This document shows positions 1,180 through 58,142 of a stretch of 64,000 nt of DNA, piece after piece. The DNA comes from Bacteroidetes bacterium B1(2017) (GTDB taxonomy: Bacteria > Bacteroidota > Bacteroidia > UKL13-3): the NCBI GenBank assembly GCA_002256395.1, contig NKJG01000005.1, positions 62,001 to 126,000 on the forward strand, in the 5' to 3' direction. Position 1 is the stretch's first letter. Every line of letters begins with the position of its first letter. Both the position numbers and the translations under genes were made by a program. A model generated the notes under the pieces. The model was not told the DNA's origin and ran no database searches. It worked only from the letters and a program-made list of their open reading frames with translations.

Positions 1180-1258
1180 CCCACCTCCCCACCAGCGACC
1201 AGCCAAGCAGCGACTTTCTTTCCCACACGCGACCAGCTTACCAGCGACCTTCCTCCCC
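1180..1258. repeat. Intergenic GCGACC repeat element (copy A)
   Basis: The spacer between two minus-strand genes carries repeated GCGACC/AGCGAC cores (ACCAGCGACC, AGCAGCGACTTTC, ACGCGACCAG, ACCAGCGACC). It is much richer in G+C than its neighbours. The same words, including AGCGACTTTCTT and ACGCGAC, recur at 5142-5237, so the two are copies of one family. Confidence 0.65.
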
Positions 1259-1259
1259 C

Positions 1260-1577
1260 TTACCTTTTCGGTAAAATAGCACTAACATTACCGTTATAAA
1301 AGCCAAGCGTTGTTCCATCTTTTAAGGCTAAGTAAAAATACTTGGTGCGTTGAGTTCCCGCCTCAAGAAACATAGTACCTGTTTTGCCAATGGTATCTTT
1401 AGCAGTTAGGTTTAACGCTTTCATTACCTCTGGCAAGGTTTTATTTGCTAAATCGCCGTGCTCTAATTTCTCATTGCTTGGTTTAGTAATTTTTGAAGAA
1501 AATGTTTTGGTTTGAGCTTTTGCCGAAAAGGCAAGGAAACAGAAGGCTATTAGGATAATTTTGGCAAGGGATTTCAT
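1260..1577 (-). CDS. Small secreted hypothetical protein
   Basis: This 105-residue protein has a textbook signal peptide (MKSLAKIILIAFCFLAFSAKAQ) and a mature part of about 83 residues. It contains no cysteine after the signal and no membrane segment, so it is probably periplasmic or secreted. The middle (LPEVMKALNLTAKDTIGKTGTMF) looks like a small folded domain, but I recognise no family. It is read away from the gene at 1816, with a 238-bp AT-rich spacer between their starts. Confidence 0.55.
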   Translation of the reverse strand: MKSLAKIILIAFCFLAFSAKAQTKTFSSKITKPSNEKLEHGDLANKTLPEVMKALNLTAKDTIGKTGTMFLEAGTQRTKYFYLALKDGTTLGFYNGNVSAILPKR

Positions 1578-1815
1578 AGGACTATATTTATGCTAAGGTA
1601 TATTTGTAACTGAAAAGTTCCAAATTATAGTTCACTAATAAAACTTACTTAGTAGCGTTTTATGGATTGTAATGGAGTAAGAATGTTCTTTAATACTATT
1701 TAAATTGGTATTGAAATACGTTAAATTGCTTCAAACCAAGCACTATAAAAATCAACGTAGAAAAGATAATTTGTCTTTAATAACTAGCTTTAAAGGTGTT
1801 TAATAGAGAAGAAAT

Positions 1816-2247
1816 ATGAGAACCGTTAATATAGCCATAGGGTTTATTTTGGTGTGTTGTATTCTATGTGGGTGTGCGATTATTAAATCGGAAATGGAGA
1901 TTAAAAAGCAACTGAATGCTAAATTTGTACTTGAACCTACCTTAGATAACAAGTTTAATCTTTATTATCTCAACAGTACAATTGCACCGGACAATTATTT
2001 ATTGGAAGCAGAGCGAAAAATATGGTATCAGGTTAATTCTAATATTACAGATGTTTACTTTAACGATAGCCTTGTTGTTGTTACAAATAAAGAAGTAAAA
2101 AAAACTATCTATTACGTATATTTTTTTGGCAAAGAATCAGAATACTTTACCTACTTTAAAGCCAAGGATTCAATTTTGCTAGGCAAAGGTTTGACTAAAA
2201 TTGGGATTAACTATAAAATAGAATTAAAATCAATTTCTGATTTATAG
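1816..2247 (+). CDS. Hypothetical lipoprotein
   Basis: This 143-residue protein opens with a hydrophobic stretch ending in a lipobox (ILCGC, lipid-attached Cys near residue 20), so it is probably an envelope lipoprotein. The mature part is rich in Asn, Tyr and Lys and shows no motif I recognise. It lies 13 bp upstream of the next secreted protein on the same strand, and the two are likely one transcription unit. Confidence 0.55.
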   Translation: MRTVNIAIGFILVCCILCGCAIIKSEMEIKKQLNAKFVLEPTLDNKFNLYYLNSTIAPDNYLLEAERKIWYQVNSNITDVYFNDSLVVVTNKEVKKTIYYVYFFGKESEYFTYFKAKDSILLGKGLTKIGINYKIELKSISDL

Positions 2248-2260
2248 AATACTTTTGGCC

Positions 2261-3058: not shown

Positions 3059-3166
3059 TTTTTTAGGATACTTCCTCTAGTGAAATGTAACCTACCAGCT
3101 CAGCAATCTGCCTTATCGAACATAAAAATCTCGAAGGATTCTCTAAATCCGACGTTTGAATATGCT

Positions 3167-3523
3167 TTACAAACCTTGGAAATTCAGTTCTTGACGATGG
3201 AAATATCCTTGTCGACATTGGAAAAAGCTCTGCCGAACCTGGAAATTGTCTTGCCGACGATGGAAATTCCCTTGTCGACATTGGAAAAAGCTCTGCCGAA
3301 GCTGGAAATTGCCTTGTCGACCTTGGAAAAAGCCCTGCCGAAGTTGGAAATGGCATTGCCGACGATGGAAATATCCTTGTCGACCTTGGAAAAAGCTCTG
3401 CCGACGATGGAAATCCCCTTGCCGACCTTGGAAATATCCTTGTCGAACTTGGAAGAAGCTTTGCCGAAGCTGGAAATGGTCTTGCCGACGATGGAAATCC
3501 CCTTGCCGACAATGGAAACACCC
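3167..3523. repeat. 21-bp tandem repeat array, 17 units
   Basis: Seventeen consecutive 21-bp units follow the pattern YTGYCGANNNTGGAAANNNYN without a break in register. Two recognisable degenerate units flank them (3146-3166 and 3524-3544). The best-conserved parts are the CGA core and the TGGAAA block. Units tend to alternate between a GAAAAAGC type and a GAAAT type, for example ttgtcgacattggaaaaagc at 3209 and 3272. The array occupies most of the spacer between a secreted protein gene and the WYL regulator. Confidence 0.9.
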
Positions 3524-3545
3524 CTACAGACAACGAAAATGTTCG

Positions 3546-3576
3546 TGGTCCATCGACTATGGACCATGGACCACAA
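3546..3576. repeat. GGACCAT-type hairpin repeat
   Basis: Directly after the 21-bp array lies a palindromic element in which GTGGTCCAT pairs with ATGGACCAC around a short loop; an extra ATGGACC heptamer is inserted in the right half. The same ATGGACCAT words build the hairpin at 37024-37062. It sits upstream of the promoter of the WYL regulator. Confidence 0.6.
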
Positions 3577-3595
3577 GCTTTTGACCTAGGATTTT

Positions 3596-5141: not shown

Positions 5142-5237
5142 AAGGTCGCCGGTCGCGGGTTCCAAGTTACCAGCGACCAGCGACGGCCTTTCCTACCAGC
5201 GACTTTCTTCCCCACCAGCAACACGCGACTTTCTTTT
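5142..5237. repeat. Intergenic GCGACC repeat element with hairpin (copy B)
   Basis: The element begins five bases after the DinB-like stop codon. Its left part (GGTCGCCGGTCGCG) is complementary to a later part (AGCGACCAGCGAC), so it can form a hairpin built from heptamers. Further AGCGAC and ACGCGAC words follow up to a T-rich end. It shares long words with copy A at 1180-1258. Confidence 0.7.
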
Positions 5238-16027: not shown

Positions 16028-17368
16028 TTACTTATCGCCGAGGTAATAGTAGTCGCTAATTTTATGTACTATTTCGTGAATAATATCGTCTAAGTCGTTC
16101 GACTCTTCTTCGAGGTGTTTAATATAGAGGTTACGCTCCTCCTTTTCCTCTGTTTCCTTGAGTAAACTAACAAGGCCAAGAATATTTGCTACTGGTTTGC
16201 GCACTTCATGAGATTGTTTCCAAGAGATGGAATTTAGCATTTCATTTTTCTTCTGAAGGTTAATTTCAATGCGTTTCCGTTGGTCAATATCAACACTATC
16301 AAAAGACACTCCCATTAAATTATTTTGATGGTCGTAAACAGGGTAATAAGAAATGCTGAACCAAACGTATTTATTAGATTCAACCTTTAGTTCGCGTTCA
16401 ATCTTAACCACTTGACCATTTAGGGCCATATTAAAGGCTTTGAGAAAGGGTATTTCTGCATCTTCAAAAATATAATCTCTAAAATCATCGCCTTCTTTCA
16501 ACTCTTTATGTGAAAGTTGAAACATGGTTATAGCTGCCTGTTTGTTATAACTAAGCACTTTAAAATCGGGACTAATGAGTACATTACAATCGGAGGTACT
16601 ATCTAATAAAGCGCGCAATTTGCTTTCAGAATGGAGAAGGCTATTGGCAATGGTTCTTTCCTCGGTAACATCTTTAAAGAAAACAGTTAAACCTTCTGGA
16701 GAAGGGTAAACGGTGGCTTTGTAAATAACCTCTTTATTCAAAACTTTTTCTTCAAAACTTATGGATTCATTTTTTTCAAAAGCCCATAAAAGTAATTTGG
16801 GGAATTGATAATGTGCATTTTCAGAAAAAAACTTCCAAAATGAGTTTCCTAATACTTCCTCTTTACGTAGGCCTAACAGCTCCTCTGCAGCATGATTAAA
16901 TTTTAGAAACTCCCAATTTTTATTTAGGACAAAAAAACCCTCTGAAATATTTTCAATAATTGAATCTGCTTTTCTTTCAAATTCAAGAGCTTTCTCGTTA
17001 GCTAATTTCGATTCGGTAATATTATGACCCACACACATAATTCCGAGAGGGAAACCATATTCATCCATTAGCAATGAAAACTCCCAAGTAGTCCAAATAT
17101 ATTCATTTGCAATTGGTGTTCCTTTTCTAATTTGCAGCTCAACTACTTCATGCGGGTTTGCAATGATTTTATTTGTAGCAATTAAGCACTTCTCTTGATC
17201 GTCGGGATGCACTAAATGATACGAATGTAAACCTATCCAATTATCGGAATAAAAAGCAAACTGATTCTGGTAATGCTCGTTAACAAACTTAAAATTACCA
17301 TCCATTCCAACAACAGTTAGATAGTAGTTTTTTGACTTTAATATCCAATTAGGTAGAAGGTGAATCAT
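16028..17368 (-). CDS. Multi-PAS protein with a HisKA-like C-terminus but no ATPase domain
   Basis: This 446-residue soluble protein has three PAS domains (about residues 10-125, 130-240 and 245-365; for example VHPDDQEKCL, FLKFNHAAEELLGLRKEEVLG, VLSYNKQAAITMFQLSHKEL). It ends with a dimerisation helix resembling HisKA (ISWKQSHEVRKPVANILGLV) followed by a second helix, and then stops. The HATPase domain needed for autophosphorylation is missing, and the downstream spacer does not encode one. It may be phosphorylated by, or inhibit, another kinase, or only dimerise. Confidence 0.8.
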   Translation of the reverse strand: MIHLLPNWILKSKNYYLTVVGMDGNFKFVNEHYQNQFAFYSDNWIGLHSYHLVHPDDQEKCLIATNKIIANPHEVVELQIRKGTPIANEYIWTTWEFSLLMDEYGFPLGIMCVGHNITESKLANEKALEFERKADSIIENISEGFFVLNKNWEFLKFNHAAEELLGLRKEEVLGNSFWKFFSENAHYQFPKLLLWAFEKNESISFEEKVLNKEVIYKATVYPSPEGLTVFFKDVTEERTIANSLLHSESKLRALLDSTSDCNVLISPDFKVLSYNKQAAITMFQLSHKELKEGDDFRDYIFEDAEIPFLKAFNMALNGQVVKIERELKVESNKYVWFSISYYPVYDHQNNLMGVSFDSVDIDQRKRIEINLQKKNEMLNSISWKQSHEVRKPVANILGLVSLLKETEEKEERNLYIKHLEEESNDLDDIIHEIVHKISDYYYLGDK

Positions 17369-18102: not shown

Positions 18103-18158
18103 GTCGCGGGTCGCTGGTCGCGGGTTGCGGGTCGCGGGTTGCTGGTCGCTAGTTGTTG
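18103..18158. repeat. Eight-copy heptamer tandem repeat (copy D of the GCGACC family)
   Basis: Seven consecutive heptamers fit the pattern GTYGCKR and an eighth reads GTTGTTG, all in perfect 7-bp register. The reverse complement is the GCGACC/AGCGACC word found at 1180, 5142 and 5964. The array lies between two divergent genes, immediately upstream of the -7 box of the CDP-alcohol transferase. Confidence 0.85.
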
Positions 18159-18176: not shown

Positions 18177-18206
18177 TTCTGCCAGAAGCTAGAGGCCAGA
18201 AGCCAG
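18177..18206. repeat. CCAGAAG heptamer element
   Basis: GCCAGAAGCTAG is followed by AGGCCAGAAGCCAG. The same CCAGAAGC words make up the inverted repeat between the RluA-like gene and lon (22444-22533). It precedes the promoter region of the ABC-F gene. Confidence 0.6.
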
Positions 18207-18242: not shown

Positions 18243-20141
18243 ATGAATTATTTGAGGGCAGAAAACCTGTCGAAACGCTTTGGAGAGAGAATTTTATTCG
18301 AAAACATTTCCTATACCTTGGTTAAAGGTAGTCGAGTTGCATTAATTGCTAAAAATGGAACAGGCAAAACTTCCTTATTAAACATCCTCACACTCAACGA
18401 TGAACCCGATAGCGGCAACATTGTTATTGACAAGAATATTAAATGGGCCTATTTAGAACAAGACCCAAGTTTTAATAAAGTAGATACCGTTTGGCAAGCT
18501 GTTTTTAACTCAGAAAACGAGGTTTTAAAAGCTGTAGCCGAATACGAATGGTGTATAGAAGAATTGGAAACTCAGCCCGATGATGCTGTTTTACAGAGCC
18601 GACTTCAGGCTGCCATGGAACAAATGGATGTATTTCAAGCCTGGGATATTGAGGCTAGGGTGCACACTATTTTAACCCAATTAAACTTACAGCATCATTT
18701 ACATCATACGGCAGATCAATTGAGTGGTGGACAAAAAAAGCGGTTGGCATTGGCTAGGGTTTTAATTCAAACACCCGATATGCTAATTTTAGATGAGCCT
18801 ACCAATCACTTAGATATTCCAATGATTGAGTGGTTAGAGGCCTATTTAAAATCGCAAGACATTACGCTTTTACTAGTTACCCACGATAGATATTTCTTAG
18901 ACAATGTGTGTAATGAAATTATTGAGATGGATTTGGGTCAGCTTTTTACCTATAAAGGCAATTATGCCTATTTTTTAGAGAAGAAAGAACAACGCGAAAC
19001 CTACCAAGCCAAAGAAGCAGATGAGGCGCGTAAATTGGCGCGTAAAGAATTAGAATGGATGCGCAGGCAACCAAAGGCTCGTACTACCAAATCAAAAAGT
19101 AGAATTGACGCCTATTACGAAACCAAAGAAAAAGCATCTTTTAGAAAAGACGATTCGCAAGTAGAAATTCAAATGCAAATGAAACGCATGGGAAATAAAA
19201 TACTTGAGGTTCAGCAATTGCACAAAAGCTATGGAAAATTAAAAATTGCCGAAGACTTTACCTACCTATTTAAACCAGGCGAACGCATTGGGGTTATTGG
19301 TAAAAATGGGGTTGGAAAATCTACTTTCTTAAACATGTTGCAAGGCTTGGAGAAACAAGACTCTGGCAAAATTGTAAAAGGAGAAACTATTAAGTTTGGG
19401 TATTATGGTCAGCAAGGCCTACAGCTAAAAGAAGATAAACGCGTAGTTGAAGTAATAACAGATATAGCAGAATATTTAGAAGTTGGTAAGGGCGTTAAAA
19501 TAACAGCCATTGCTTTGCTGCGCATGTTTTTGTTCGACCCTAAGAAGCAACACAACTATGTAAGCTCATTAAGTGGAGGCGAAAAACGTAGGTTGTATTT
19601 GTTAACGGTGTTGATGGAAAAACCAAACTTCTTAATTTTAGATGAGCCTACCAATGATTTGGATATTGAAACCCTAAATGTGTTGGAAGAGTTTTTAGAA
19701 AGTTATGAAGGGTGTTTGCTTGTGGTTACCCACGACCGTTATTTTATGGATACTTTGGTAGAGAAACTATTTGTTTTTGAAGGCGAAGGACATATTAGAG
19801 ACTTTAATGGCAATTACCAGGACTACCTGAATGAATTGGAAGATAAGAAGCAGGCAGCATACAATGCAAAGCAAGAATTGTTGAAACCAAAAGTAGAACC
19901 TAAAAAAGTAGAAGCTCCAAAACCTGTAGAAAAGAGGAAGCTAACTTTTAAGGAGCAGCGCGAGTTGGAGCAATTAGAAACGGATATGGAAATGCTTTCA
20001 GGCCGCAGAAAAGATTTAGAAAATATGCTGAGCCAAGGAAGTAATAATCATCAAGAATTATTGGAGTGGAGCACAGAAATTGAGACCATTAAAAACGAGC
20101 TAGATGATAAAGAATTGCGTTGGTTGGAATTAACGGAATAG
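18243..20141 (+). CDS. ABC-F family ATPase (Uup-like)
   Basis: This 632-residue protein contains two ABC ATPase domains and no membrane segment, as in ABC-F translation factors. Domain 1 has Walker A (AKNGTGKTS), signature LSGGQKKRLA and Walker B LDEPTNHLD; domain 2 has GKNGVGKST, LSGGEKRRLY and LDEPTNDLD. A charged linker separates them (about residues 245-320), and a C-terminal coiled coil (residues 560-632) rich in Glu, Lys and Leu resembles that of Uup. ABC-F proteins bind the ribosome and resolve stalled states. It is divergent from the CDP-alcohol transferase. Confidence 0.92.
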   Translation: MNYLRAENLSKRFGERILFENISYTLVKGSRVALIAKNGTGKTSLLNILTLNDEPDSGNIVIDKNIKWAYLEQDPSFNKVDTVWQAVFNSENEVLKAVAEYEWCIEELETQPDDAVLQSRLQAAMEQMDVFQAWDIEARVHTILTQLNLQHHLHHTADQLSGGQKKRLALARVLIQTPDMLILDEPTNHLDIPMIEWLEAYLKSQDITLLLVTHDRYFLDNVCNEIIEMDLGQLFTYKGNYAYFLEKKEQRETYQAKEADEARKLARKELEWMRRQPKARTTKSKSRIDAYYETKEKASFRKDDSQVEIQMQMKRMGNKILEVQQLHKSYGKLKIAEDFTYLFKPGERIGVIGKNGVGKSTFLNMLQGLEKQDSGKIVKGETIKFGYYGQQGLQLKEDKRVVEVITDIAEYLEVGKGVKITAIALLRMFLFDPKKQHNYVSSLSGGEKRRLYLLTVLMEKPNFLILDEPTNDLDIETLNVLEEFLESYEGCLLVVTHDRYFMDTLVEKLFVFEGEGHIRDFNGNYQDYLNELEDKKQAAYNAKQELLKPKVEPKKVEAPKPVEKRKLTFKEQRELEQLETDMEMLSGRRKDLENMLSQGSNNHQELLEWSTEIETIKNELDDKELRWLELTE

Positions 20142-20216
20142 CCATTCGATAAACTCAGGCTGACAATGCTATAGGAGAAGAAGCGAGAGACGAGAAGCGA
20201 GATGCGAGAAAAAAGT

Positions 20217-20267
20217 GTACAGAATACAGAGTTCAGATAGGAATTTTCTGAAATCTGTATTCTGTAC
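20217..20267. repeat. Long hairpin between convergent genes
   Basis: GTACAGAATACAGA at 20217-20230 is the exact reverse complement of 20254-20267, and inside it TTCAGA (20232-20237) pairs with TCTGAA (20247-20252), leaving one mismatch and a 9-base loop. It lies between the convergent ABC-F gene and the outer-membrane gene and could serve as a bidirectional terminator, though without a long T tract. A GCGAGAA/GCGAGAC heptamer run (20172-20209) precedes it. Confidence 0.75.
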
Positions 20268-20273
20268 TCTCAC

Positions 20274-20981
20274 TTAGCTACCAGCAGGTTTGGTCATTAC
20301 TAATTTAACACCAAAATTTAAATAATTAAGTGATTGAAAAGCTTCGGTGCTTGAGCTCTGTGAAGAAATATCTGTTTTCTGTTTAGCGCCTGTATAATCT
20401 CCGTATAGAGAGATTGCAAATACATCTGGAATGACAACAAATTTAACTTGAGCTCCAAAAGAATAAGCAAAAGCAATATTGCCATCAAAATTAAACAGCT
20501 CCTTTACTAGTACAACATTATTATTATCATAAACAGTTACCGAAAATGCTTTGGTGTTATTAAAAATAATCCCTGCTGTTCCATTCACCCCAAAAGATAC
20601 TTTATCGCTTACTGGAAAATCGTAAGAAGGACCAACAGTGGTAAGAATAGGGCTATATTTACTGTCAGAAATTTCTGTTCTATATCCTAATTCTTTCGTA
20701 AATTTTTCTTCCATAGTTTTAGTATCCATGGCATTCCATTGAAAGGTTGAGTGCGAATAAAACGAAAGTCCTTTTGGAAAATTCTTTAATGGACTTTTAG
20801 TATCTAACACAATACCCCAACCATTTTTGGCAAAACCGCCCTCTTTTAAATCTGTTGATTTAAATTTACCAACCGGCATGGCCATAAATGCGCCCACACT
20901 GGTTTGATTTTGTGCAAAGATGTTTTGAGAAGCAAGACTTAAAAATAGGGCAAAAAAAGGAAATAGGAGTTTTCTTTTCAT
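20274..20981 (-). CDS. Outer-membrane beta-barrel protein
   Basis: The ATG at 20981 is chosen because it is directly followed by a signal peptide (MKRKLLFPFFALFLSLASQNIFAQ); an upstream in-frame extension to 21095 adds 38 implausible residues. The 235-residue product has repeated amphipathic strands such as VSFGVNGTAGIIF, IAFAYSFGAQVKFVV and YLNFGVKLVMT. It fits the small PorT/OmpX-like barrel group of Bacteroidota in a general way. It has no partner gene nearby. Confidence 0.65.
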   Translation of the reverse strand: MKRKLLFPFFALFLSLASQNIFAQNQTSVGAFMAMPVGKFKSTDLKEGGFAKNGWGIVLDTKSPLKNFPKGLSFYSHSTFQWNAMDTKTMEEKFTKELGYRTEISDSKYSPILTTVGPSYDFPVSDKVSFGVNGTAGIIFNNTKAFSVTVYDNNNVVLVKELFNFDGNIAFAYSFGAQVKFVVIPDVFAISLYGDYTGAKQKTDISSQSSSTEAFQSLNYLNFGVKLVMTKPAGS

Positions 20982-21230
20982 AGTAGTAATTGTTGCAATA
21001 GGTAAAAAGTTAATAAATATTTCAATTAAACAAATGTGTTTATTATTGGTTTTATTATCAAGTAATTTTAATAAAAAGACAAAAATTAAGAGCAATACTC
21101 CTTGTTTGTGGCAGATTTATATTCATATTAGTTCAAATAAAAATCGTAAGTTTATTTATCTTTCATGGATTGGTTTGGCCATTTTGTTATATAAAAATTA
21201 AGGCGCAATCTAAAAACATCTATAAAACTA

Positions 21231-21587
21231 ATGACACAAAAATCTGCATTTTCTGAAACCATAGCTTGGGGCGATTTTGAGAAAGTTGAACTACGTGTTG
21301 GCACTATTATTAAAGCCGAAGAATTTGCTAAAGCGCGCAAACCTGCCTATAAGGTTTGGGCCGATTTTGGTGAGTTTGGTATAAAAAAAACGAGTGCTCA
21401 AATTACACATCATTATACCTGCGAAGGGCTTATTGGGCAACAAATAATTGGCGTATTAAATTTTGAACCCAAGCAAATTGCCGACTTTATTTCGGAATTT
21501 CTATTAACTGGTTTTGCCGACGAGCAAGGGAATATTATACTATCGCAACCTAAGAATGTGGTGCCTAATGGGAGTAGGCTTGTGTAG
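21231..21587 (+). CDS. csaA: CsaA-like tRNA-binding domain protein
   Basis: The 118-residue protein is a single EMAP/tRNA-binding OB fold, the whole length of CsaA. The typical beginning FEKVELRVGTIIKAEEFAKARKPAYKVWADFG and the sequence QIIGVLNFEPKQI match the family, which binds tRNA as a dimer and has been linked to chaperone activity. The RluA-like gene lies 126 bp downstream on the same strand but has its own promoter box. Confidence 0.88.
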   Translation: MTQKSAFSETIAWGDFEKVELRVGTIIKAEEFAKARKPAYKVWADFGEFGIKKTSAQITHHYTCEGLIGQQIIGVLNFEPKQIADFISEFLLTGFADEQGNIILSQPKNVVPNGSRLV

Positions 21588-21700
21588 AAAAGTGTGAAGA
21601 AAGGGAAAGAGAAAGAAATGTGCCTCTTTCTCTATCTCTTTCTCTCTTTCTCCTTCTCTTTCTCTTCCTTCTGCACCATGCCTTTTCTCAATTATTCCCT

Positions 21701-21708
21701 TACATTTG
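21701..21708 (+). promoter_or_regulatory. -7 box of the RluA-like gene (TACATTTG)
   Basis: TACATTTG is a perfect TAnnTTTG box that ends 5 bp before the ATG at 21714. It decides the start of the downstream gene and implies an essentially leaderless message. The stretch before it (21594-21675) is a purine/pyrimidine-rich low-complexity region with GAGAAA/TTTCTC words. Confidence 0.6.
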
Positions 21709-21713
21709 CGGCT

Positions 21714-22439
21714 ATGGAAAATCCGAAGGTAATTCCCTTTAAACAAATGATACTTGAGGAGGATGAGCATTTTGTGTTTATTAATAAACCCGCGCTTTAT
21801 TCTTCATTAGACGATAGACATGGCGATGTATTCTCTATTATTCGTCAGGCCAAGAAACACGATGAAAACCTACAACTTTGCCACAGATTGGATAAAGAAA
21901 CAAGTGGTATTTTGGTGATTGCGAAAAACGAAATGGTTTACCGAGAGATGGCTATGTTATTTGAAAAACGTGAGGTTAAGAAAGTATACCACGCAGTAGC
22001 AGAAGGCGTTTTAAACGTTCAAGAGCAAAAAATCGTTTTACCTTTGGGTCAAACCGCTAAGGGCGTTGCCAAAATTGATAAAATAGACGGAAAGCCATCT
22101 GAAACAATTGTAAGTACTCTCAAAAATTACCGCCATTATACTTTATTAGCATGTATGCCTGTTACCGGTAGATTGCACCAAATTAGAATTCACTTAGCAT
22201 CCCAAAATTTCCCATTGGTTGCAGATGTAACGTATGGTGGTAAAATGCCTTTTCTATCAAAAATAAAGGCCAAATACAAAGAGGGCAAATGGGAAAACGA
22301 AGAGCCAATGATGAAACGCGTAGCACTTCACTCCTACTCGATTCACTTTAACTTATTTGAAAAGGAATACAATATTGTAGCTCCGTATCCAAAAGACTTT
22401 GCCGTTTTGGTGAAGCTGTTGGAAAAGAATGATGCTTAA
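21714..22439 (+). CDS. RluA-family RNA pseudouridine synthase
   Basis: The start at 21714 is set by the promoter box just before it; a longer frame from 21594 would add 40 residues of low-complexity sequence. The 241-residue enzyme has the catalytic motif HRLDKETSGILV (catalytic Asp in RLD), and the later GRLHQIRIHLA motif of the RluA/RluC/RluD group. The family turns specific uridines of rRNA or tRNA into pseudouridine; there is no S4 domain, so the TruC/RluA-like class is most likely. The stop is followed at once by a CTTCTGG repeat. Confidence 0.9.
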   Translation: MENPKVIPFKQMILEEDEHFVFINKPALYSSLDDRHGDVFSIIRQAKKHDENLQLCHRLDKETSGILVIAKNEMVYREMAMLFEKREVKKVYHAVAEGVLNVQEQKIVLPLGQTAKGVAKIDKIDGKPSETIVSTLKNYRHYTLLACMPVTGRLHQIRIHLASQNFPLVADVTYGGKMPFLSKIKAKYKEGKWENEEPMMKRVALHSYSIHFNLFEKEYNIVAPYPKDFAVLVKLLEKNDA

Positions 22440-22443
22440 GAAA

Positions 22444-36868: not shown

Positions 36869-36888
36869 CAGTTCGTTTTTTACCATTC

Positions 36889-37062: not shown

Positions 37063-37078
37063 ACTTTAGAAAATTAGT

Positions 37079-38692
37079 TTACTGTAGAAATTCAACTTTA
37101 AATTCTACTCGGCGGTTGCGGGTTCTACCGTTTGTAGAATCGTTGGTATCCACTGGAGAGGTTTCGCCATAACCAGTTGCAACTACTCTTAGTGGATCAA
37201 CACCATGGCTAATTAAATAATTAGATACGGCAGTTGCTCTATCTTGAGAAAGTGTCATGTTCATGGCATCTTCGCCAACATTATCTGTATGGCCACCAAT
37301 TAATAATTTATAGCTAGGATTTTCTTTCATAACCTTTACGATAGAATTTAAGATTGGGTAGGAAACAGGTTTGATTTTGTCTTTTCCAGTTTCGAACTGA
37401 ATACCTTGCAATGCTTTTTGAAACAATTGTTTAGTAGCTGCTTTAATCTCTGGGCAACCTTGATTTTGAGGCACACCCACAATATTTATACATCTGTCAA
37501 CATCATCAAACACACCATCTTTATCGGTATCAGGGCAACCAAAATGGTCGGCGCTTCCTGGGCTATTAGGGCATTTATCAACGCCATCATGAATACCATC
37601 TTTATCGCTATCAGGACAACCTTGAGTTTGAATCGTTCCTGCAACATCTGGACATATATCATCGGCATCTTTAATACCATCATTATCTCTATCTGGGCAA
37701 CCGTTCATAGCAAGTGTACCATAAATATTAGGGCAAGCATCTTTGCTATCCGTTATGCCATCTTCATCGGCATCTGGGCAACCTTTTAATTCTATAGTAC
37801 CAGCTACAGTAGGGCACTGATCGTCTTTATCTGCTACACCATCTTTATCAGAATCGGGGCAACCTTCAGTGCCTGCCATACCAGCTAGGTCTGGACATTT
37901 ATCTTTATAATCGGCCACGCCGTCGCCATCTTTGTCAACAGGGCAACCATCTTCATCAACTGTTACACCAGTAGGCGTATTAGGGCACTTATCTTTTTTA
38001 TCGCTTACGCCATCTTTATCGGCATCTTTACCTCTACCTAGGTTCATACCAACACCAATCATATGAAGCATAAATTGATCGTTACCTGTAGCGGCAACGC
38101 CTAAATTAGTTTCGGGATTATTATGAGCAGTACTCATATATCCAAAAGTTGCTTGATAATTTAAACTGAGGGTATTAGATAGGCGCAAACGAGCGCCTAC
38201 ACCAAGAATTGCTGGATAATCGTAGCCATTAGTAATTCTATCGCCAGTTGTGTTTGCAACACCTCCACCCGCAAAGATATAGGGAGCAATGATGCTATTC
38301 TCGGCCAACATATAACCATTATTAAACTTATATTTAAAATTTAAATTAGATTGAAGCATACTTCCTTTAAAAATGGTGACATCATTTTTATAATAGCCCC
38401 AAGAGCCATATGAACCATTTAAAGAAACATCAAAAGATCTTCCTAAATACCTCGAAAAGGTAATTGCTCCTGTTGGATTTTGGCGGAACACATCGGTGGT
38501 AAAATTGTTCATGCTATTACCCAAGTCTCCAGCATAAACACTAAAGCCTCCCATTAGGCCAATATTCCATTTACGCTCGCTGGTTTGAGCATTTACATTC
38601 AGTATAACTGCGGTTAAAAACAATAAGAGTACTACTTTTTTCAAATTCCTAAACAAAGGAAAATGAGGATTAAATTTGAGATGCATTTTCAT
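37079..38692 (-). CDS. OmpA-family porin-like protein with thrombospondin type-3 repeats
   Basis: The 537-residue protein has a signal peptide (VVLLLFLTAVILNVNAQ), an N-terminal barrel domain (about residues 38-215), a calcium-binding linker of seven TSP3 repeats of the DxDxDGVxDxxDxCP type (residues about 220-390), and an OmpA C-terminal peptidoglycan-binding domain (IGGHTDNVGEDAMN, LSQDRATAVSNYLISHGV, GRTRNRRVEF). It should link the outer membrane to the cell wall. Its 3' end carries a strong palindromic terminator. Confidence 0.93.
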   Translation of the reverse strand: MKMHLKFNPHFPLFRNLKKVVLLLFLTAVILNVNAQTSERKWNIGLMGGFSVYAGDLGNSMNNFTTDVFRQNPTGAITFSRYLGRSFDVSLNGSYGSWGYYKNDVTIFKGSMLQSNLNFKYKFNNGYMLAENSIIAPYIFAGGGVANTTGDRITNGYDYPAILGVGARLRLSNTLSLNYQATFGYMSTAHNNPETNLGVAATGNDQFMLHMIGVGMNLGRGKDADKDGVSDKKDKCPNTPTGVTVDEDGCPVDKDGDGVADYKDKCPDLAGMAGTEGCPDSDKDGVADKDDQCPTVAGTIELKGCPDADEDGITDSKDACPNIYGTLAMNGCPDRDNDGIKDADDICPDVAGTIQTQGCPDSDKDGIHDGVDKCPNSPGSADHFGCPDTDKDGVFDDVDRCINIVGVPQNQGCPEIKAATKQLFQKALQGIQFETGKDKIKPVSYPILNSIVKVMKENPSYKLLIGGHTDNVGEDAMNMTLSQDRATAVSNYLISHGVDPLRVVATGYGETSPVDTNDSTNGRTRNRRVEFKVEFLQ

Positions 38693-38800
38693 GATATAAT
38701 TAGATTAACAGAATCTTTTGATTCCGGTTCAAAACTAAACCTATCCTTTGCGTTAAGCCTTACAGAAATAAGGCATTATCTTACATCAATCCCACTTTAT

Positions 38801-40063
38801 TTAGATATAAAAAAAGGCCCTTTGTTGCATATCCAATTTCTTTATGGTTAACCTAGCTAGTAAATAACTTAAACTAGATTCAGCGCCTTGGTTCAGATTA
38901 ACTTGAGTTTCTTCTAAACCATCATAACACCCACCCGTGCACGGGTTATAAATTATTTGATGTAAGTGATTTTTACCCAAAAACCAATTGAAGGCCACCG
39001 CAACTTTTTCGAGGTATTTTGAATCTTTGAAAACCTCATAAAATCGTTTAAGCGAAAGAATAGTATATGCCACATCAATTGGTTGTTGCCCATGGATAGA
39101 AGATTTACCGCCCTTTAACAACCAAGATTGATTTGAGATAAGGTTAATTTGATCGTGGTAAAACATTTTGCTTATTAAAAAATCGAAACTTGATTTTGCT
39201 ACATCTTTGTATTTAGAGTCACTTGTATCCTGGTAGGCACATAGCATTGCTTCTGGAAGGATACTATTTGCATAAGTTAAATAACATTCAAACCATTCCC
39301 AATTAGGTTCCGATTCATGTTTATACATTTCAAGTAATCGATCTGCTAATTTTATTATTAAGTCGGTTCGAACCGAAGAATTAGTACCAAAATTTGCGTA
39401 GTATAGCCCTTTAATGGCAAAGCCCATAGCCCGTGAAGAAAGTATACTTTCAATTTTTACATAGGCATTCATCAAAATTTCTTCGGCCTGTTGAATAAGT
39501 TCCAGTGGAAACAAATCTGATTTGGATAATAAATACCCAAGTGCCCAAATAGCCCTCCCGTTTGAATCGTCTAGATTCTCTATTTTATTTTGGCTAGTAA
39601 ATTGGCAATTAGCATCTAAATAATTTAGGAATGAGCCATCTATTTGTTGACAGTTTTGAATAAAATTCAGATAAATAAGGATAGGTTCAATGCTACTTTT
39701 TTGATTGGTTAATTCAAAATGCATCACATAGGCAATTAATGCACGAGCGTTATCATCAAGGGTGTAGCCACTTTCCATATCGGGTTGATTAACCTTAGAG
39801 AATTGAATTATTCCAGTATTGGTAGTAAGGTTTTGGATATGGGTTAAATTGATTGGAGGTAATTTAAAACATAATTGTATTTTGGAGTTTGATGCCGTAG
39901 GAATTTTAAGTTTAAACTCTGGATAATTACTAACGAGTTGTTTTCTTGAAATTCGTTGAAACAATTCGGCATAAGAAATGGCAGAATTTCCCCAAGCAGT
40001 GGGAGCCATACGTTGCAGTGTGTTTTGAGTGAAAAGAGTTCGTAAGGTCTCATCAAAAAGCAA
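38801..40063 (-). CDS. C-terminal half of a split glycosyltransferase: six-hairpin glycosidase-like domain
   Basis: This 420-residue frame begins at a TTG, 12 bp after the in-frame TAA that ends the glycosyltransferase half. The first residues (MLFDETLRTLFTQNTLQRMAPTAWGNSAISYAELFQRI) are the end of a GT4 domain, which shows they belong to the gene before. The rest looks like an (alpha/alpha)6-barrel domain (ESGYTLDDNARALIAY, DDSNGRAIWALGY, GQQPIDVAYTILSLKRFYE, CYDGLEETQVNLNQGAESSLSYLLA), as in Bacteroidota proteins where a GT4 is fused to a glycosidase-like domain. It is either the end of a nonsense-damaged gene or a separately reinitiated protein. Confidence 0.65.
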   Translation of the reverse strand: MLFDETLRTLFTQNTLQRMAPTAWGNSAISYAELFQRISRKQLVSNYPEFKLKIPTASNSKIQLCFKLPPINLTHIQNLTTNTGIIQFSKVNQPDMESGYTLDDNARALIAYVMHFELTNQKSSIEPILIYLNFIQNCQQIDGSFLNYLDANCQFTSQNKIENLDDSNGRAIWALGYLLSKSDLFPLELIQQAEEILMNAYVKIESILSSRAMGFAIKGLYYANFGTNSSVRTDLIIKLADRLLEMYKHESEPNWEWFECYLTYANSILPEAMLCAYQDTSDSKYKDVAKSSFDFLISKMFYHDQINLISNQSWLLKGGKSSIHGQQPIDVAYTILSLKRFYEVFKDSKYLEKVAVAFNWFLGKNHLHQIIYNPCTGGCYDGLEETQVNLNQGAESSLSYLLARLTIKKLDMQQRAFFYI

Positions 40064-51055: not shown

Positions 51056-53710
51056 TTAAGGCTTGTTAATAATATTTGTACTGGTTAAAACTACAGCACC
51101 ATTGCTACATAAAACTCTGCCTTGAAGGGTAGCATTAGAATTTAATGTGATAGAAGTTAACACCAATAAATTTCCTTTAAAGGCTGTATTATCTCCAATG
51201 GTGGCAGAGCTACCAACTTGCCAATAAATATTCTTAGCCTGTGCCCCATTCGTTAAAATTATACTCCCACCTGAACCACCTGTAGTTGTTAATGCCGAAG
51301 CAATTTGAAAAATCCAAACAGCGTTTACATCGCCTTGTGCATCTAAGGTTAAATTGCCACCAAGTACAAGTAAGGATGAGGTTGATTTATAAATACCAGG
51401 TGCAAGGGTTAAGCCACCTTGATCGCCCGCCACCGTAACAGGAGCTGGTGATACAGCGCCTGCAGCATATAAATACGCAGCAGTTAAATCTGCTTTGGCC
51501 TGAACCAACATAGCAGCAGTTCCTACAGGTACTAAATCATCAGATGCATATATTGCTCCACCCACAATGGTTGCTGGAGGAAATCCAGTTACCGAAGAAC
51601 GTGCTCCTGGGCTAATTCCAACATCCATATTATTGATTACACTAAAGCCTGCATTATTACTTACCCCAACACCCGAAATGATTCCGAAGCGTGCTACTGT
51701 TTTTAAATCCGGTGGAATAGGTCCTAGTGGAGCTTTGGTATTAAATGTCCACACATAATTAGAAGCCAATGATGTACCTGCTACATTTTTAGCAAGCGTT
51801 GTAATAGTAGCCGTATAGGTATTACCAGACAACAAATTAGAGCTAGGTGTAAAAGTTGCTGTGCTGCCAGAATAACCTACAGTACCCGCAACTGGAGTTA
51901 CTCCAAGTTTTAACGTAAAACTCAAATTCGTTATGGTTGCAGCATCCATAGGTTCGCTAAAGGTGGCCGATAAAACCTTATTTAAAACTACATTGGAAGC
52001 CAAGTTTAATGGATCAACCAAAATCACAGTTGGAGCCGCTGCGGCTATAGTTGTAAAAGTCCAAACATAATCTGTTGCAATGGCTGTACCTGCTACGTTC
52101 TTAGCAAGCGTAGTAATGGTGGCAGTATACGTGCTACCCGATGTTAAATTAACCGTTGGAGTAAACGTTGCAGTTGTGCCCGAATAGGCCACAACACCTG
52201 TAATTGGCAATGCTCCCAATTTTAAGGTAAAACTTAAATTGTTTATAGTGGCAGCATCCATTGGAGTACTAAAATTAGCCGAAATGACTTTGTTTAATAA
52301 AACATTGGAAGCCAAGTTTAATGGATCAACTAAAATTACTGTTGGAGCAATTGCCGCTGCGGTAGTAAAACTCCACACATAATCAGTAGCAATAGCTGTA
52401 CCTACTACATTTTTAGCAAGAGTTGTTATGGTTGCTGTATAAGTAGTACCCGCGAGCAAATTACTTGAGGGTGTAAAAGATGCTTTTAATCCAGCATAGC
52501 TAACAATACCTGAAACTGGAGTTGCTCCAATTTTCAAGGTAAAACTTGAATTGGTAATTGTAGCTGCATTCATTGGTTCGCTAAAAGTTGCCGAAACAAT
52601 TTTGTTTAAAAGTACATTAGAGGATAGATTTAAAGGATCAACCAAAACTACCGTTGGTGCAATTGAAGGCACAGTTGTAAAGCTCCAAACAAAATCAGAA
52701 ACCAAATGTGTACCCGATTTATCTTTTGCCATTGTGGTAATGGTGGCGGTATAAAGTGTATTAGGCAATAAGGCAATAGTTGGTGTAAAGGTGGCGATAG
52801 TGTCTATATAGGTTATTGTTCCTAATACCACATTGCTCCCTTGCATTAATTTAAAACTAGAATCTTTTATACTTAAATGATCCATTGGAACATTAAAGCT
52901 TGCTGTAACAATTTTATTTAACGGCACATTAATACTTGAACCTACAGGATTTGTTTTAGTAACAAACGGAGCGGGCAATGATAAGGTAGTAAATTGCCAT
53001 ACATAATTATTGGCCAAATTTGTTTTACCTAAAGTTTTGGCCATAGTAGTTATGGTAGCAGTATAAACAGTACTTGGAGCTAAATTACTACTAGGAGTAA
53101 AAACGGCGGTGGTATCTGTATATGTAACCACACCTGCAACAGAAACAGCACCTGCTTTTAAGCTAAAACTAGAATCCTTTATACTTGTTGGATCCATAGG
53201 TAAACTAAAGGTTGCTTTTACAACTTTGTTTAATGGCACATTGGTTTCGGTATTAAAGGGATCGGTTGAGCTTACTATAGGAGCAATAATAACTCCAGTA
53301 CTAAACGACCAAACATATTCGCGCTGTAAAGCATTTCCCCGCATATCACGAATGGATGTTTTAACAATACCTGTATAGGTAGTATTGGCCAACAAAGGAG
53401 CATTAGGCATGAAGTTCATGCTGGCAGTTTGCTGGTTATAGGTTAATACACCCGCAACCGATGTTGCTGCCTTTAATTCAAAACAAGCTGGAATAATTGT
53501 AGCTGGATTTAACTCTTCGTTAAATGTAACAACTATTACTTGGTTAAGGGGTACAGACAAGGCCCCGTTTAATGGGTTAGTTGCAGTAACAACTGGGCAT
53601 ACGCCTGGTGTTTCTACAAAATTGTCTTTCTTACAACTGCCTACCATTAAGGCTATAAAAACAGACACAGCTAGCGCTGGCCAAAGAAATTTTGGAGTAA
53701 TCATTTTCAT
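51056..53710 (-). CDS. Ig-repeat lipoprotein with C-terminal ice-binding (DUF3494) domain
   Basis: The 884-residue protein has a lipoprotein signal (FIALMVGSC, Cys26), six SbsA-type bacterial Ig domains of 103-104 residues, each with PLNKxVxAxFxxPMD-like starts and AxxYVWSFTT-like ends, and a C-terminal DUF3494 ice-binding-like domain (about the last 220 residues: ARFGIISGVGVSNNAGFSVINNMDVGISPGARSSVTGFP, GGLTLAPGIYKSTSSLLVLGGNLTLDAQGDVNAVWIFQI, GNLLVLTSITLNSNATLQGRV). That domain is a beta-solenoid that binds ice, or adheres to other surfaces, in known members. Repeats 4-6 are nearly identical in DNA. Confidence 0.9.
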   Translation of the reverse strand: MKMITPKFLWPALAVSVFIALMVGSCKKDNFVETPGVCPVVTATNPLNGALSVPLNQVIVVTFNEELNPATIIPACFELKAATSVAGVLTYNQQTASMNFMPNAPLLANTTYTGIVKTSIRDMRGNALQREYVWSFSTGVIIAPIVSSTDPFNTETNVPLNKVVKATFSLPMDPTSIKDSSFSLKAGAVSVAGVVTYTDTTAVFTPSSNLAPSTVYTATITTMAKTLGKTNLANNYVWQFTTLSLPAPFVTKTNPVGSSINVPLNKIVTASFNVPMDHLSIKDSSFKLMQGSNVVLGTITYIDTIATFTPTIALLPNTLYTATITTMAKDKSGTHLVSDFVWSFTTVPSIAPTVVLVDPLNLSSNVLLNKIVSATFSEPMNAATITNSSFTLKIGATPVSGIVSYAGLKASFTPSSNLLAGTTYTATITTLAKNVVGTAIATDYVWSFTTAAAIAPTVILVDPLNLASNVLLNKVISANFSTPMDAATINNLSFTLKLGALPITGVVAYSGTTATFTPTVNLTSGSTYTATITTLAKNVAGTAIATDYVWTFTTIAAAAPTVILVDPLNLASNVVLNKVLSATFSEPMDAATITNLSFTLKLGVTPVAGTVGYSGSTATFTPSSNLLSGNTYTATITTLAKNVAGTSLASNYVWTFNTKAPLGPIPPDLKTVARFGIISGVGVSNNAGFSVINNMDVGISPGARSSVTGFPPATIVGGAIYASDDLVPVGTAAMLVQAKADLTAAYLYAAGAVSPAPVTVAGDQGGLTLAPGIYKSTSSLLVLGGNLTLDAQGDVNAVWIFQIASALTTTGGSGGSIILTNGAQAKNIYWQVGSSATIGDNTAFKGNLLVLTSITLNSNATLQGRVLCSNGAVVLTSTNIINKP

Positions 53711-55795: not shown

Positions 55796-58006
55796 ATGGA
55801 CTCTATAGCTAGATATAAAATATTATTCTGTCTTTCCCTAATCCTGTCGATACTTAGCACCAGTCTCTTCGCTCAAAAAGTAGATTCAACAAGCAACAAG
55901 ATGGAAGAGCTCGTTATTTCGGCAGATAGGTTTCAAGAAAAAATAAAAGACCTTCCTAGGCAAATAGATGTTCTTTCAAAAAAGCAAATAGAATTATGGA
56001 ATAAACAAAACACAGCCGATTTACTTCAGGAAACAGGAAATGTGTTTATTCAAAAAAGTCAGCAAGGAGGAGGAAGCCCTGTTATGCGAGGATTTGAAGC
56101 GAACAGAATTTTGTTAGTAGTAGATGGAATAAGGTTAAACAACGCCATTTATAGAAGCGGACATTTACAAAACATTTTGCGCATAGATCAAAACATGCTA
56201 CAAAATGTAGAATTAGTTTATGGGCCAGGTGGTCTTGTTTATGGCTCAGATGCAATGGGTGGAGTTATACATTTTTCAACTCAGAAACCTAGTTTTAATA
56301 AAGGAATTACGGGCAATTATTCTGGAAGATTTAGCACGGTAAATTCAGAAATTAACAATTCAATTTCACTTGGATATTCTTCTAATAAAATTTCATTTAG
56401 TGGAAATTTTACTGCAAGTAATTATGGAGATTTAAGGCAAGGCAAAAATAGACCTAGCAGCATGGGAACATTAGGCTTGCGAAATTTCTACCAAGCAAGG
56501 GAAGCGAATAAAGACATTATTAAACAAAATACTTCGCCCGAATTACAAATTGGTTCAGCCTACCAACAAAAAAATGGCATGGCCAAGTTAACATTTAAAC
56601 CAAGCACAAAGCAACAACATACGCTTGAATATATTGGGAGTATTAGCAGCAATGTTCCTAGGTACGACAGACTAAGTGAAAGTAAAAAAGATACTCCAAC
56701 TTATGGCGAATGGTATTATGGACCAGAGAAATTTAATTTAATAAGCTACCAATTTGAGGATACCAAGAGCCGATTAATTTCTAATCAAATCAAACTTACT
56801 TCTTCTTTTCAATCCATTGAAGAAAGTAGAGTTTCTAGAAACTTTGGCAGTAGCAAAAGAACCTTCAGAACAGAAAATGTAAAGGTATATTCATTAAACC
56901 TTGACCTTAGAAAAATTATTGGAATACATGAAATTAAGTATGGATTGGAATATGTATTAAACGATGTTCAATCAAAGGCAAATGCATTAAATATAAACAC
57001 AAATGCTATTAGTAATGCCAGTACACGTTATCCAGATGGCGGATCGACTATGTGGTGGACAGCAGCCTACCTAAACATAAATCAAGAGATTACCCCTAAA
57101 CTAATTTTGAGTGAAGGCCTTAGAGTGTCGCACACCCAATTAAAATCAACCTTTAAGGATAAAACATTTTATGAATTTCTTCCAAATACAATTGAACAAA
57201 AAAACACCTCCCTGTGCGGCAGTTTAGGACTTGTTTATTTAGTTCAAAAAAACTCAAAAGTATATGCAAACATTGGCAATGCATTTAGAACACCAAATGT
57301 GGACGATATGGGTAAAATATTTGATTCTAAATCGGGTTCAGCTATGATTTTACCTAATCCTAACCTTAAGCCAGAACAAAGCGTAAGTGCAGAAATAGGA
57401 ACTCTAATAAAAGCAACAGATAAGTTAAGTATAGAAGCAAATGTGTTTTACACCAAACTATGGAATGCTATCCTAACTCAAAAAACCACCCTAAATGACA
57501 GTGATAGTTTAATCTATGATGGAAAACTAACTCCTGTTTATAGCTTACAAAATTCACAAAATGGATACCAGTACGGACTCAATTTTCAAGTAGCCTATTA
57601 TTTTAGCACGAAGTTAGTTTTGCAAAGTAGTATTAATTATACCTATGGTAGAATTATAGGAGATAGCGTAATGCCAATCGATCACATTGCACCTTTATTT
57701 GGAAAAACTTCCCTCACTTATTCCTATCATAAAATTCAGGCAAGTTTATATTCACTCTATAGCGGCACAAAAAAACTTAAAGATTATTATTTGAATGGGG
57801 AAGACAATTTACAATATGCCACCCCTACTGGCATGCCGTCTTGGTACACACTAAACATTCAAACATCCTATTCATTTCTAAAAAGCAATACGCTTCGTTT
57901 AGGACTTGGTATTGAAAATATTTTAGATAGAAACTACCGCACATTTTCAAGTGGCATTAGCTCTCCGGGGAGAAACTTTTGGATTAATGTTGCACTAAAA
58001 TTTTAG
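55796..58006 (+). CDS. TonB-dependent outer-membrane receptor
   Basis: The 736-residue protein has a signal peptide (ILFCLSLILSILSTSLFAQ), a plug domain (about residues 35-160 with DLLQETGNVFIQKSQQGGGSPVMRGFEANRILLVVDGIRLNNAIYRSGHLQNI and GPGGLVYGSDAMGGVIHF) and a 22-stranded barrel ending in Phe. The plug is like that of haem/haemoglobin receptors in Bacteroidota, so haem or iron uptake is possible. A carboxypeptidase-like N-terminal extension of the SusC type is absent. There is a possible -7 box (TATTTTCG) at 55765. Confidence 0.9.
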   Translation: MDSIARYKILFCLSLILSILSTSLFAQKVDSTSNKMEELVISADRFQEKIKDLPRQIDVLSKKQIELWNKQNTADLLQETGNVFIQKSQQGGGSPVMRGFEANRILLVVDGIRLNNAIYRSGHLQNILRIDQNMLQNVELVYGPGGLVYGSDAMGGVIHFSTQKPSFNKGITGNYSGRFSTVNSEINNSISLGYSSNKISFSGNFTASNYGDLRQGKNRPSSMGTLGLRNFYQAREANKDIIKQNTSPELQIGSAYQQKNGMAKLTFKPSTKQQHTLEYIGSISSNVPRYDRLSESKKDTPTYGEWYYGPEKFNLISYQFEDTKSRLISNQIKLTSSFQSIEESRVSRNFGSSKRTFRTENVKVYSLNLDLRKIIGIHEIKYGLEYVLNDVQSKANALNINTNAISNASTRYPDGGSTMWWTAAYLNINQEITPKLILSEGLRVSHTQLKSTFKDKTFYEFLPNTIEQKNTSLCGSLGLVYLVQKNSKVYANIGNAFRTPNVDDMGKIFDSKSGSAMILPNPNLKPEQSVSAEIGTLIKATDKLSIEANVFYTKLWNAILTQKTTLNDSDSLIYDGKLTPVYSLQNSQNGYQYGLNFQVAYYFSTKLVLQSSINYTYGRIIGDSVMPIDHIAPLFGKTSLTYSYHKIQASLYSLYSGTKKLKDYYLNGEDNLQYATPTGMPSWYTLNIQTSYSFLKSNTLRLGLGIENILDRNYRTFSSGISSPGRNFWINVALKF

Positions 58007-58007
58007 A

Positions 58008-58060
58008 GGGCAAAAGGACATTAAGGACCTTAGGGACAACAGGACTAAAGGGACATAAAT
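58008..58060. repeat. AGGGAC repeat tract
   Basis: Five or six roughly 8-9-bp units of the AAGGACATT / AGGGACAAC type follow the stop codon of the TonB receptor gene. The spacer also carries, at 58109-58127, the inverted copy of the 19-bp word at 34678-34696. The whole spacer (58007-58142) between the convergent genes is therefore repeat-derived. Confidence 0.6.
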
Positions 58061-58108
58061 CTTGGCGCCCTGCCGCAGGTATTAACATGCCTAATGAAGC
58101 AAAGCGAC

Positions 58109-58127
58109 CGTCCATGCAACGCCATGC
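58109..58127. repeat. 19-bp word shared with 34678-34696 (inverted)
   Basis: CGTCCATGCAACGCCATGC is the exact reverse complement of the word at 34678-34696. Both copies lie between convergent genes and both adjoin similar CGCTNTGCTT-like sequence on the outer side. Confidence 0.75.
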
Positions 58128-58142
58128 AATACCCTGCCTTTC

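Follow-up and report, generated by a model that had tools for sequence, protein, structure and literature searches.

Intergenic spacers of Bacteroidetes bacterium B1(2017) carry arrays of short words in tandem, usually 7 bases long, in numbers above those of shuffled sequence. We describe them in a window of 64,000 nucleotides (contig NKJG01000005.1, positions 62,001 to 126,000 of the forward strand; G+C about 36%), in further sequence of the same genome and in relatives. The original prediction for this window had proposed that at least six unrelated word families (GCGACC, CCAGAAG, CAGAATA, GGACCAT, AGGGAC and GCATGG) share a period near 7 bp or a multiple of it, and that a mechanism with a fixed period might build them regardless of the word. 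As an observation this is partly confirmed: the feature is real, was overstated for the window and is better founded in relatives. The interpretation is partly supported. We think it probable that the arrays are small dispersed intergenic repeats, whose words gain and lose units and drift by slippage, and which are tolerated or used at gene ends. The bases for this reading are the lineage-specific presence of arrays at orthologous sites, paired CCAGAAG arms at three loci, gaps of 7 or 14 bases between duplicated modules and a decay of unit similarity in a distant Bacteroidia chromosome (G310), enrichment between convergent genes, and arrays in genomes that yielded no reverse transcriptase.

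Repeat arrays in the window genome

The assembly comprises 5.5 Mb in 225 contigs (99.98% complete; contamination estimate 7.13%), of which 1.664 Mb was examined (the window, C137:1-1,200,000 and C113:1-400,000, both contigs of this genome). Among records of a plasmid collection, those closest to its Lon protein come from Parabacteroides and Bacteroides (55.5%), in keeping with Bacteroidia. Genes were called with a purpose-written open reading frame (ORF) caller, which leaves the edges of spacers approximate; its 53 genes for the window are fewer than a separate ORF list suggests. Arrays were counted against dinucleotide-preserving shuffles (for the window, 100 shuffles and a score of at least 4.8). 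The spacer holding a repeat ORF (3080–3589) was left out of the window array counts, the convergent-spacer counts and the folding and module comparisons, and arrays below 30% G+C were left out of the convergent-spacer, array G+C, folding and module comparisons.

Window spacers contained seven arrays of period 7 (shuffle mean 0.72, maximum 3), six of period 14 (0.51, maximum 3) and four of period 10 (0.51, maximum 3), with a weak excess at period 6 (four arrays; 0.99, maximum 4). Across the 874 spacers of at least 20 bp in the examined genome sequence, array counts against shuffles were 6/0.3, 12/0.2 and 12/0.2 at periods 7, 14 and 21, the last including the window repeat ORF, as this was not called as a gene. 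Other periods were also in excess: 6/0.8 at period 6, 7/0.5 at 10, 4/0.0 at 12, 4/0.2 at 15, 7/0.1 at 20, 7/0.1 at 22 and 6/0.2 at 23. An equal-sized coding sample gave 0 or 1 array at each period, which bears out the claim that the repeats lie between genes.

All six named families are present where they had been described, as clusters of repeats in spacers. Period 7 fits four of them, GCGACC only partly. Word starts step by 7,7 for CAGA at 20220 (CAGAATA family) and by 7,14 for CTGG at 22448 (CCAGAAG family), and 7 is the best-scoring period of the GGACCAT arrays (3552–3573 and 37030–37056). GTCGC steps by 7,7,14,14 at 18103, and GCGAC by 15,19,15 at 1195 and by 7,19,26 at 5173. AGGGAC and GCATGG do not fit: GGAC steps by 9,9,8,9 at 58016–58051 (Tandem Repeats Finder period 9 at 58014) and GCATG by 10,10 at 34668 (period 10 at 34667). 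The strict claim of a single period thus fails in the window genome because the period differs between families, an outcome that the prediction had itself named as contrary to it. Traits of published heptanucleotide simple sequence repeats (SSRs) and short tandemly repeated repetitive sequences (STRRs) were found here, namely tandem 7-base units above chance, a mainly intergenic location and differences between close species; a period of 7 in every named family was not (AGGGAC 8–9, GCATGG 10, and 6 for CTCTTT nearby). The repeats of the window are as follows (strand given where assigned).

1188–1252, no strand: GCGAC(C) cluster with irregular spacing of 15/19/15; hairpin no better than shuffles (z +1.36)
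3541–3573, no strand: GGACCAT/GGACTAT heptamers, 13-pair hairpin closing the repeat ORF (z -2.97)
5144–5235, no strand: GCGACC family, inverted arms (GGTCGC...GCGACC), steps 7/19/26, hairpin (z -4.34)
18103–18158, plus: GTCGCTG/GTCGCGG/GTTGCTG heptamers, periods 7 and 14, divergent spacer
18181–18206, plus: CCAGAAG-family heptamers adjoining the GTCGC array
20179–20210, plus: AGAAGCG/AGAGACG heptamers, convergent spacer
20217–20270, no strand: CAGAATA/CAGAGTT heptamers in two inverted arms that form a strong hairpin, convergent spacer (z -6.93)
21624–21669, plus: CTCTTT array of period 6 (a family outside the 7-base step), upstream of or within the unconserved start of an RluB-like gene
22450–22534, no strand: CCAGAAG family, two inverted heptamer arms, convergent RluB-like/Lon junction (z -3.65)
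34667–34725, plus: GCATGGCGTT family, period 10, within a ~60 bp GCATGG element whose copies in other spacers are 79–88% identical to it
37024–37062, no strand: CCATGGA heptamers, 17-pair hairpin between A and T runs, intrinsic-terminator-like (z -7.00)
58014–58055, plus: AGGGAC family, step 8–9; hairpin no better than shuffles (z -0.89)
58067–58140, minus: GCATGG element, inverted, matching C137:883366-883439 over 74 bp at 85%

The CTCTTT array may sit inside the unconserved start of the RluB-like ORF, because start calls differ (21747 by our caller, 21594 in the ORF list). About ten word families make up the array list of the genome, including CACAACGGA, a ~20-base TTCGACAAGCTCAGC element and CTCTTT. 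The sequence CAGCGACCAGCGAC occurs at 39 exact places in the genome and at none in 40 relatives, 18 of them of the same genus. Bulk autocorrelation by gene orientation, which had been proposed as a check, gave no clear lag-7 peak in the spacers of any orientation (lags 6/7/8: convergent.288/.281/.266; tandem.298/.290/.286; divergent.299/.290/.288); arrays were counted instead because the bulk signal was judged too diluted.

BLAST of nine window elements against the examined genome sequence found other copies for six (10, 15, 34, 63, 29 and 25 hits), counts that are inflated because loci L001–L003 and L006–L008 overlap each other and arrays match in several registers. Among the placed hits (those in the L loci were unplaced), at most one per query fell within sequence called as coding. 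The arm-loop-arm layout of the CCAGAAG copy in the window recurs in arm pairs at C137:242525 and C137:730550, giving three loci in total (by fold and by eye). The same GCATGG element lies at 34667 and, in the opposite orientation, at 58067 of the window.

Location was the better supported part of a proposed tie to transcription ends. All four convergent spacers above 50 bp in the ORF list of the window (20142–20273, 22440–22518, 34663–34903 and 58007–58142) hold a repeat, as had been claimed, two of them with periods 9–10. Arrays occurred in 10/85 convergent spacers of at least 50 bp in the window genome, 4/30 in the sister species G008 and 12/22 in G310, against 39/622, 6/220 and 31/153 other spacers. 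The pooled odds ratio is 3.1 (p 2e-5; window genome alone p 0.07), a result that concerns location only. In tandem spacers the array lay nearer the upstream stop in 22/38 cases (window genome) and 17/27 (G310), a weak lean. The arrays are also richer in G+C, as described earlier: 0.498 against 0.326 for other spacer DNA of the window genome, where the prior exclusion of arrays below 0.30 G+C favours the result, and 0.540 against 0.418 in G310 without that filter.

Hairpins had been called frequent, and this holds for five of eight window stretches, which fold with z below -2 (3534, 5120, 20205, 22440 and 37020); the stretches at 1175, 18100 and 58007 gave no such fold. In the window genome, folding is stronger in spacers with an array (mean z -3.85, n=21) than in those lacking one (mean z -1.48, n=84; p 2e-4). 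However, hairpins are common rather than defining, because convergent spacers fold about alike without an array (z -5.01, n=13) and with one (z -6.21, n=5), and in G310 the difference between array and array-free spacers is not significant (p 0.14). Of the 39 G310 array spacers, 11 also contain an inverted 9-mer (9.1 expected), so that an excess is unsupported; by eye, at least five places among the G310 matches listed have a plus array followed by a minus array within 250 bp. Judged by eye and by its fold, the element at 37024–37062 looks like a two-way intrinsic terminator. A consensus scan for intrinsic terminators over 20001–40000 returned 15 sites (15.5 in shuffles) and did not include it, probably owing to the loop limit of the scan.

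Several further repeats were seen in this genome. The putative coding ORF 3080–3589 consists of 21-base repeats (7-residue units on the plus strand; also open on the minus strand) and ends in the GGACCAT hairpin. Three 312-base tandem repeats (73% alike) lie at 51737–52662 within a long minus-strand ORF (51056–53710), whose product is perhaps, at a guess, a repeat-domain surface protein. At C137 940,500-946,500 (L056), ~22-base TCTTTGCACAATAGGCGAGTA repeats and CACAACGGA inverted repeats cluster across several neighbouring spacers. Separate from the heptamers, a TTCGACAAGCTCAGC / GAGCTTGTCGAA repeat of ~20–23 bases is common to the window genome (C137 20459, 499005 and 1078950) and G008 (C1:61415).

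Arrays in sister species and distant lineages

We examined 0.59 Mb of G008, 0.11 Mb of a second sister species, G012, and 0.40 Mb (G310:C1:1000001-1400000) of G310, a single-contig chromosome of 4,097,636 bp from the same class as the window genome. G008 has arrays above shuffles at periods 7 (6/0.1), 14 (4/0.2) and 21 (3/0.1), with up to three at other periods; its words include GTCNTTR, GCYNTTR and CTGAATT and, as in the window genome, CCAGAAG and a CTTTCT array. G012 has two arrays of period 7 (0.0 in shuffles) and 0 or 1 at other periods.

Arrays come and go at orthologous sites, with different words, as their lineage-specific occurrence there indicates. Of 88 gene pairs adjacent in both the window genome and a relative (80 in G008, eight in G012), three show an array difference; in the remaining pairs neither side has a G+C-rich array, or arrays are missing altogether. 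At 21587 a CTCTTT array in the window genome faces CTGAATT heptamers in G008. At 22439 the CCAGAAG hairpin corresponds to 3 bp in G012, and at 28105 the window genome has 7 bp where G012 has a 92-bp inverted pair of TTCATAA heptamers that forms a hairpin. Comparison of 17 RluB-like/Lon loci gave 79 bp with an array for the window genome and -32 to 7 bp for the 14 relatives with Lon. In G008, where Lon is absent from the locus, the stop codon of the same RluB-like gene is followed by another heptamer array; the RluB-like locus of G013 had no Lon match and no array.

The 7-step architecture independent of word is seen in G310. Its 400-kb piece has 63, 52, 30 and 19 arrays at periods 7, 14, 21 and 28, which are overlapping views of the same arrays (0.0, 0.0, 0.0 and 0.1 in shuffles), and 0–2 at every period other than multiples of 7. 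Period-7 arrays occupy 39/215 spacers; a slightly lower threshold gives 75 arrays with 40 distinct consensus words. The word changes along an array without loss of register (for example at 16711–16849 of the piece). Units one to eight apart match at.79,.75,.69,.66,.60,.58,.54 and.53, against.19–.29 off phase. Modules of 99–227 bp are common to spacers a few kb apart, and four comparisons of duplicated modules, which share copies, gave gaps of 1,7,7; 7,7; 7,7; and 7,7,14, so that nine of the ten gaps are 7 or 14 bases. The decay of similarity and these gaps are as expected from repeated local gain and loss of whole units.

Beyond these genomes, period 7 is not universal. Plasmid A of Trichormus variabilis (350 kb) has nine arrays of period 7 (0.1 in shuffles), five of period 14 (0.0) and up to three at others, which agrees with the heptamers published for cyanobacteria. 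Prevotella sp. oral taxon 299 (200 kb; L309–L312) has degenerate spacer repeats of period 22 (11 vs. 0.0 in shuffles) and no period-7 array at threshold (0 vs. 0.2), and 50 kb of E. coli K-12 with only 25 spacers had no arrays. The sample is small, but it suggests that the favoured step varies by lineage.

Three candidate regularities were set aside. Three copies of GTCNTTR occur in 18/295 genomes of the class and 13/155 genera, often at several loci per genome. We rejected it as a special word: the pattern read backwards, itself a heptamer and hence not a neutral control, occurs by count of rows in 29 genomes, the window genome included. A common word grammar, W-N-N-G-Y-R-G, obtained by expectation maximization from the 75 G310 arrays (911 vs. 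629, standard deviation 22), lost its signal on thinning: 287 vs. 224 (standard deviation 7.6) for the 40 distinct words, 135 vs. 122 (5.9) for 19 words at a distance of at least 2, and 65 vs. 70.5 for ten words at a distance of at least 3. With period-7 arrays, null sets did as well in 12/1000 cases for the window genome (20 arrays), 46/1000 for G008 (seven arrays), 0/1000 for the window genome, G008 and G012 together (28 arrays) and 680/1000 for Trichormus plasmid A (12 arrays). Adding arrays of periods 14 and 21, those of the repeat ORF 3080–3589 left out, gave 49/500 for the window genome and 51/500 for G008; arrays below 15% G+C were left out of both of these sets of tests. We read the signal as relatedness of the words and not as a rule. 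The first array per spacer in the G310 piece is plus in 30 cases and minus in nine; a replication-strand polarity was dropped as unproven, since GTRGAC (220 and 134 matches on the two strands) is found in both orientations along the chromosome among the matches listed, up to 100 per strand.

A Planctomycetota metagenome-assembled genome (maxbin.317) carries three copies of CCAGCGA on many JALHRW01 contigs (L090, L099, L100, L103 and others) among the matches listed; this is the same word as the GCGACC family of the window.

Origin of the arrays

In the reading that we favour, the element is built around a tandem run of short words, usually 7 bases long. Modules that already exist, including hairpins with a word array in each arm, would be copied or inserted into spacers and would persist best at gene 3' ends, chiefly between convergent genes, because they do least harm there and may serve as terminators. 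Inside a module, slipped pairing during replication would add or remove whole units and point mutation would make the words drift, so that words would diversify along the array while the register of 7 stays. We infer slippage as the cause of the steps, the mode by which modules move, the use as terminators and the reason why 7 is favoured, for which the length of DNA held by the polymerase is a published guess and the poorer repair of loops longer than 1–3 bases may also matter.

Several observations weigh against this reading. The window elements at 3540, 20205 and 37030 have no second copy in the genome sequence searched, so that dispersal is not shown for these, and the best match of the element at 22440 falls in a called coding region. 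The gaps of 7 and 14 stem from one distant genome and a handful of related modules in it, with shared copies, and a further duplicated pair in G310 has gaps of 2 and 6 bases. Several families of the window genome, with periods of 6, ~9, 10 and ~20–23, lie outside one 7-base process, and slippage by itself hardly accounts for the 79 bp gained at the RluB-like/Lon junction.

A fixed-period mechanism that acts regardless of the word, as originally proposed, does not account for the mixture of periods in the window genome (6, 7, ~9, 10 and ~20–23), but is supported by the 40 words at step 7 in G310 and by the other words at the same step in sister species. A broader form of it is conceivable, if rather doubtful: spacers of some Bacteroidia would be subject to a word-independent 7-step process, extreme in G310, that turns almost any word into heptamer arrays walking through word space in register and reaches nearly a fifth of the spacers, the step being set by the replication or repair machinery of the lineage (22 in one Prevotella). 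About equally doubtful is that selection makes and keeps the repeats as RNA or protein binding sites or as terminator hairpins, with the reader setting the period, for instance one cold-shock protein per heptamer, a candidate named for TAACTGA repeats (PMC4679880). The enrichment in convergent spacers, the strong hairpins at 20217, 22450 and 37024 and the better folding of array spacers in the window genome are consistent with selection. However, the convergent spacers that fold about as well without arrays, the absence of a significant folding difference or of an excess of inverted 9-mers in G310, and the different words carried by sister species at the same site argue against it.

REPIN/RAYT elements are small dispersed intergenic hairpins, and the repeats described here resemble them in this respect. 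A mobile hairpin of this kind, moved by a Y1 transposase (IS200/IS605 or RAYT) with the heptamers as mere content, would agree with the CCAGAAG arm pairs at three loci, with the GCATGG element of ~60–74 bp in many spacers and with Y1_Tnp domains in 15/19 genomes of the genus, including six matches in the window genome. We nevertheless regard it as improbable, since G008 has arrays and no Y1_Tnp match (a draft, 96% complete), the word families are unrelated in sequence, and no terminal sequence common to them was noticed, though no dedicated search was made. The templated copying enzyme of the original prediction, whether a reverse transcriptase or telomerase-like, would lay down units of fixed length and could thus yield a step of 7 with many words, and RVT_1 (PF00078) is present in G310 and G012 (one each) and in G137 (five). 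The domain was not found in the window genome (99.98% complete), in G008, or in G082, G076 and G091, which carry GTCNTTR arrays; the window genome and G008 also carry arrays, and the search covered the reverse-transcriptase kind only. Moreover, the words of G310 are too varied for one template, with 40 distinct in 400 kb, and their drift and decay of similarity fit local duplication. Such an enzyme is therefore very unlikely, and since arrays occur in genomes without detected RVT_1 or Y1_Tnp, the data do not call for a reverse transcriptase or a Y1 transposase. MutS was present in eight of eight genomes. Chance low-complexity DNA would explain the lack of a distinct lag-7 peak in the bulk autocorrelation of window-genome spacers, but can practically be dismissed, as arrays are far above dinucleotide-preserving shuffles in the window genome, G008, G310 and Trichormus plasmid A.

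Relation to published heptamer repeats

The heptamer repeats are of a published kind, of which the many-word case is a variant. Heptamers are the most abundant class of repeat unit in most bacterial genomes (Mrazek et al., 2007, as cited in PMC4679880 and PMC4692102), and slippage and a polymerase footprint, the length of DNA held by the polymerase, have been proposed for them (PMC4679880, PMC4692102). Repair falls for loops longer than 1–3 bases (PMC4060949). Short tandem repeats are not generally enriched in bacteria, although their density is high in Bacteroidota (PMC12699852), and satellites derived from heptamers are mentioned in PMC6749651.

As in the heptanucleotide SSRs of Mrazek et al. 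(2007), a 7-base unit is favoured here, and the slippage and footprint idea had already been put forward for those. In contrast to them, we find many degenerate words per genome, a register that is kept while the word drifts (G310) and, in the window genome, additional periods of 6, 9, 10 and ~20. The TAACTGA heptamers of Beggiatoaceae, cyanobacteria and five Bacteroidetes (MacGregor, 2015; PMC4679880) are likewise intergenic, patchy across phyla and in some cases missing from the spacer of a close relative; they consist of one fixed word, mostly just before start codons in the main species, whereas many words and convergent gene ends characterize the arrays described here. The GGGAATC (Xanthomonas) and GGGGA(C/T)T (Nostoc) heptamers (Rehm et al., 2015; PMC4692102) share with ours degenerate arrays, inverted pairs with hairpin potential and a length that varies between close species, but have one G-rich word type per genome studied. 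In the literature searched, which covered few subscription papers, we found no publication describing Bacteroidota genomes with many heptamer words.

Since 2007, bacterial tandem repeats have been described as favouring a 7-base step, with a guess at its cause (PMC4679880, PMC4692102). Genomes like G310, which keep a single step across dozens of words while relatives have few repeats or favour other steps, open a direct route to the question of what determines step length. At the orthologous sites, sister species differ by newly gained spacer DNA between convergent genes, some of it in the form of terminator-like hairpins. What deserves following up is the state of G310, in which many words share one step.

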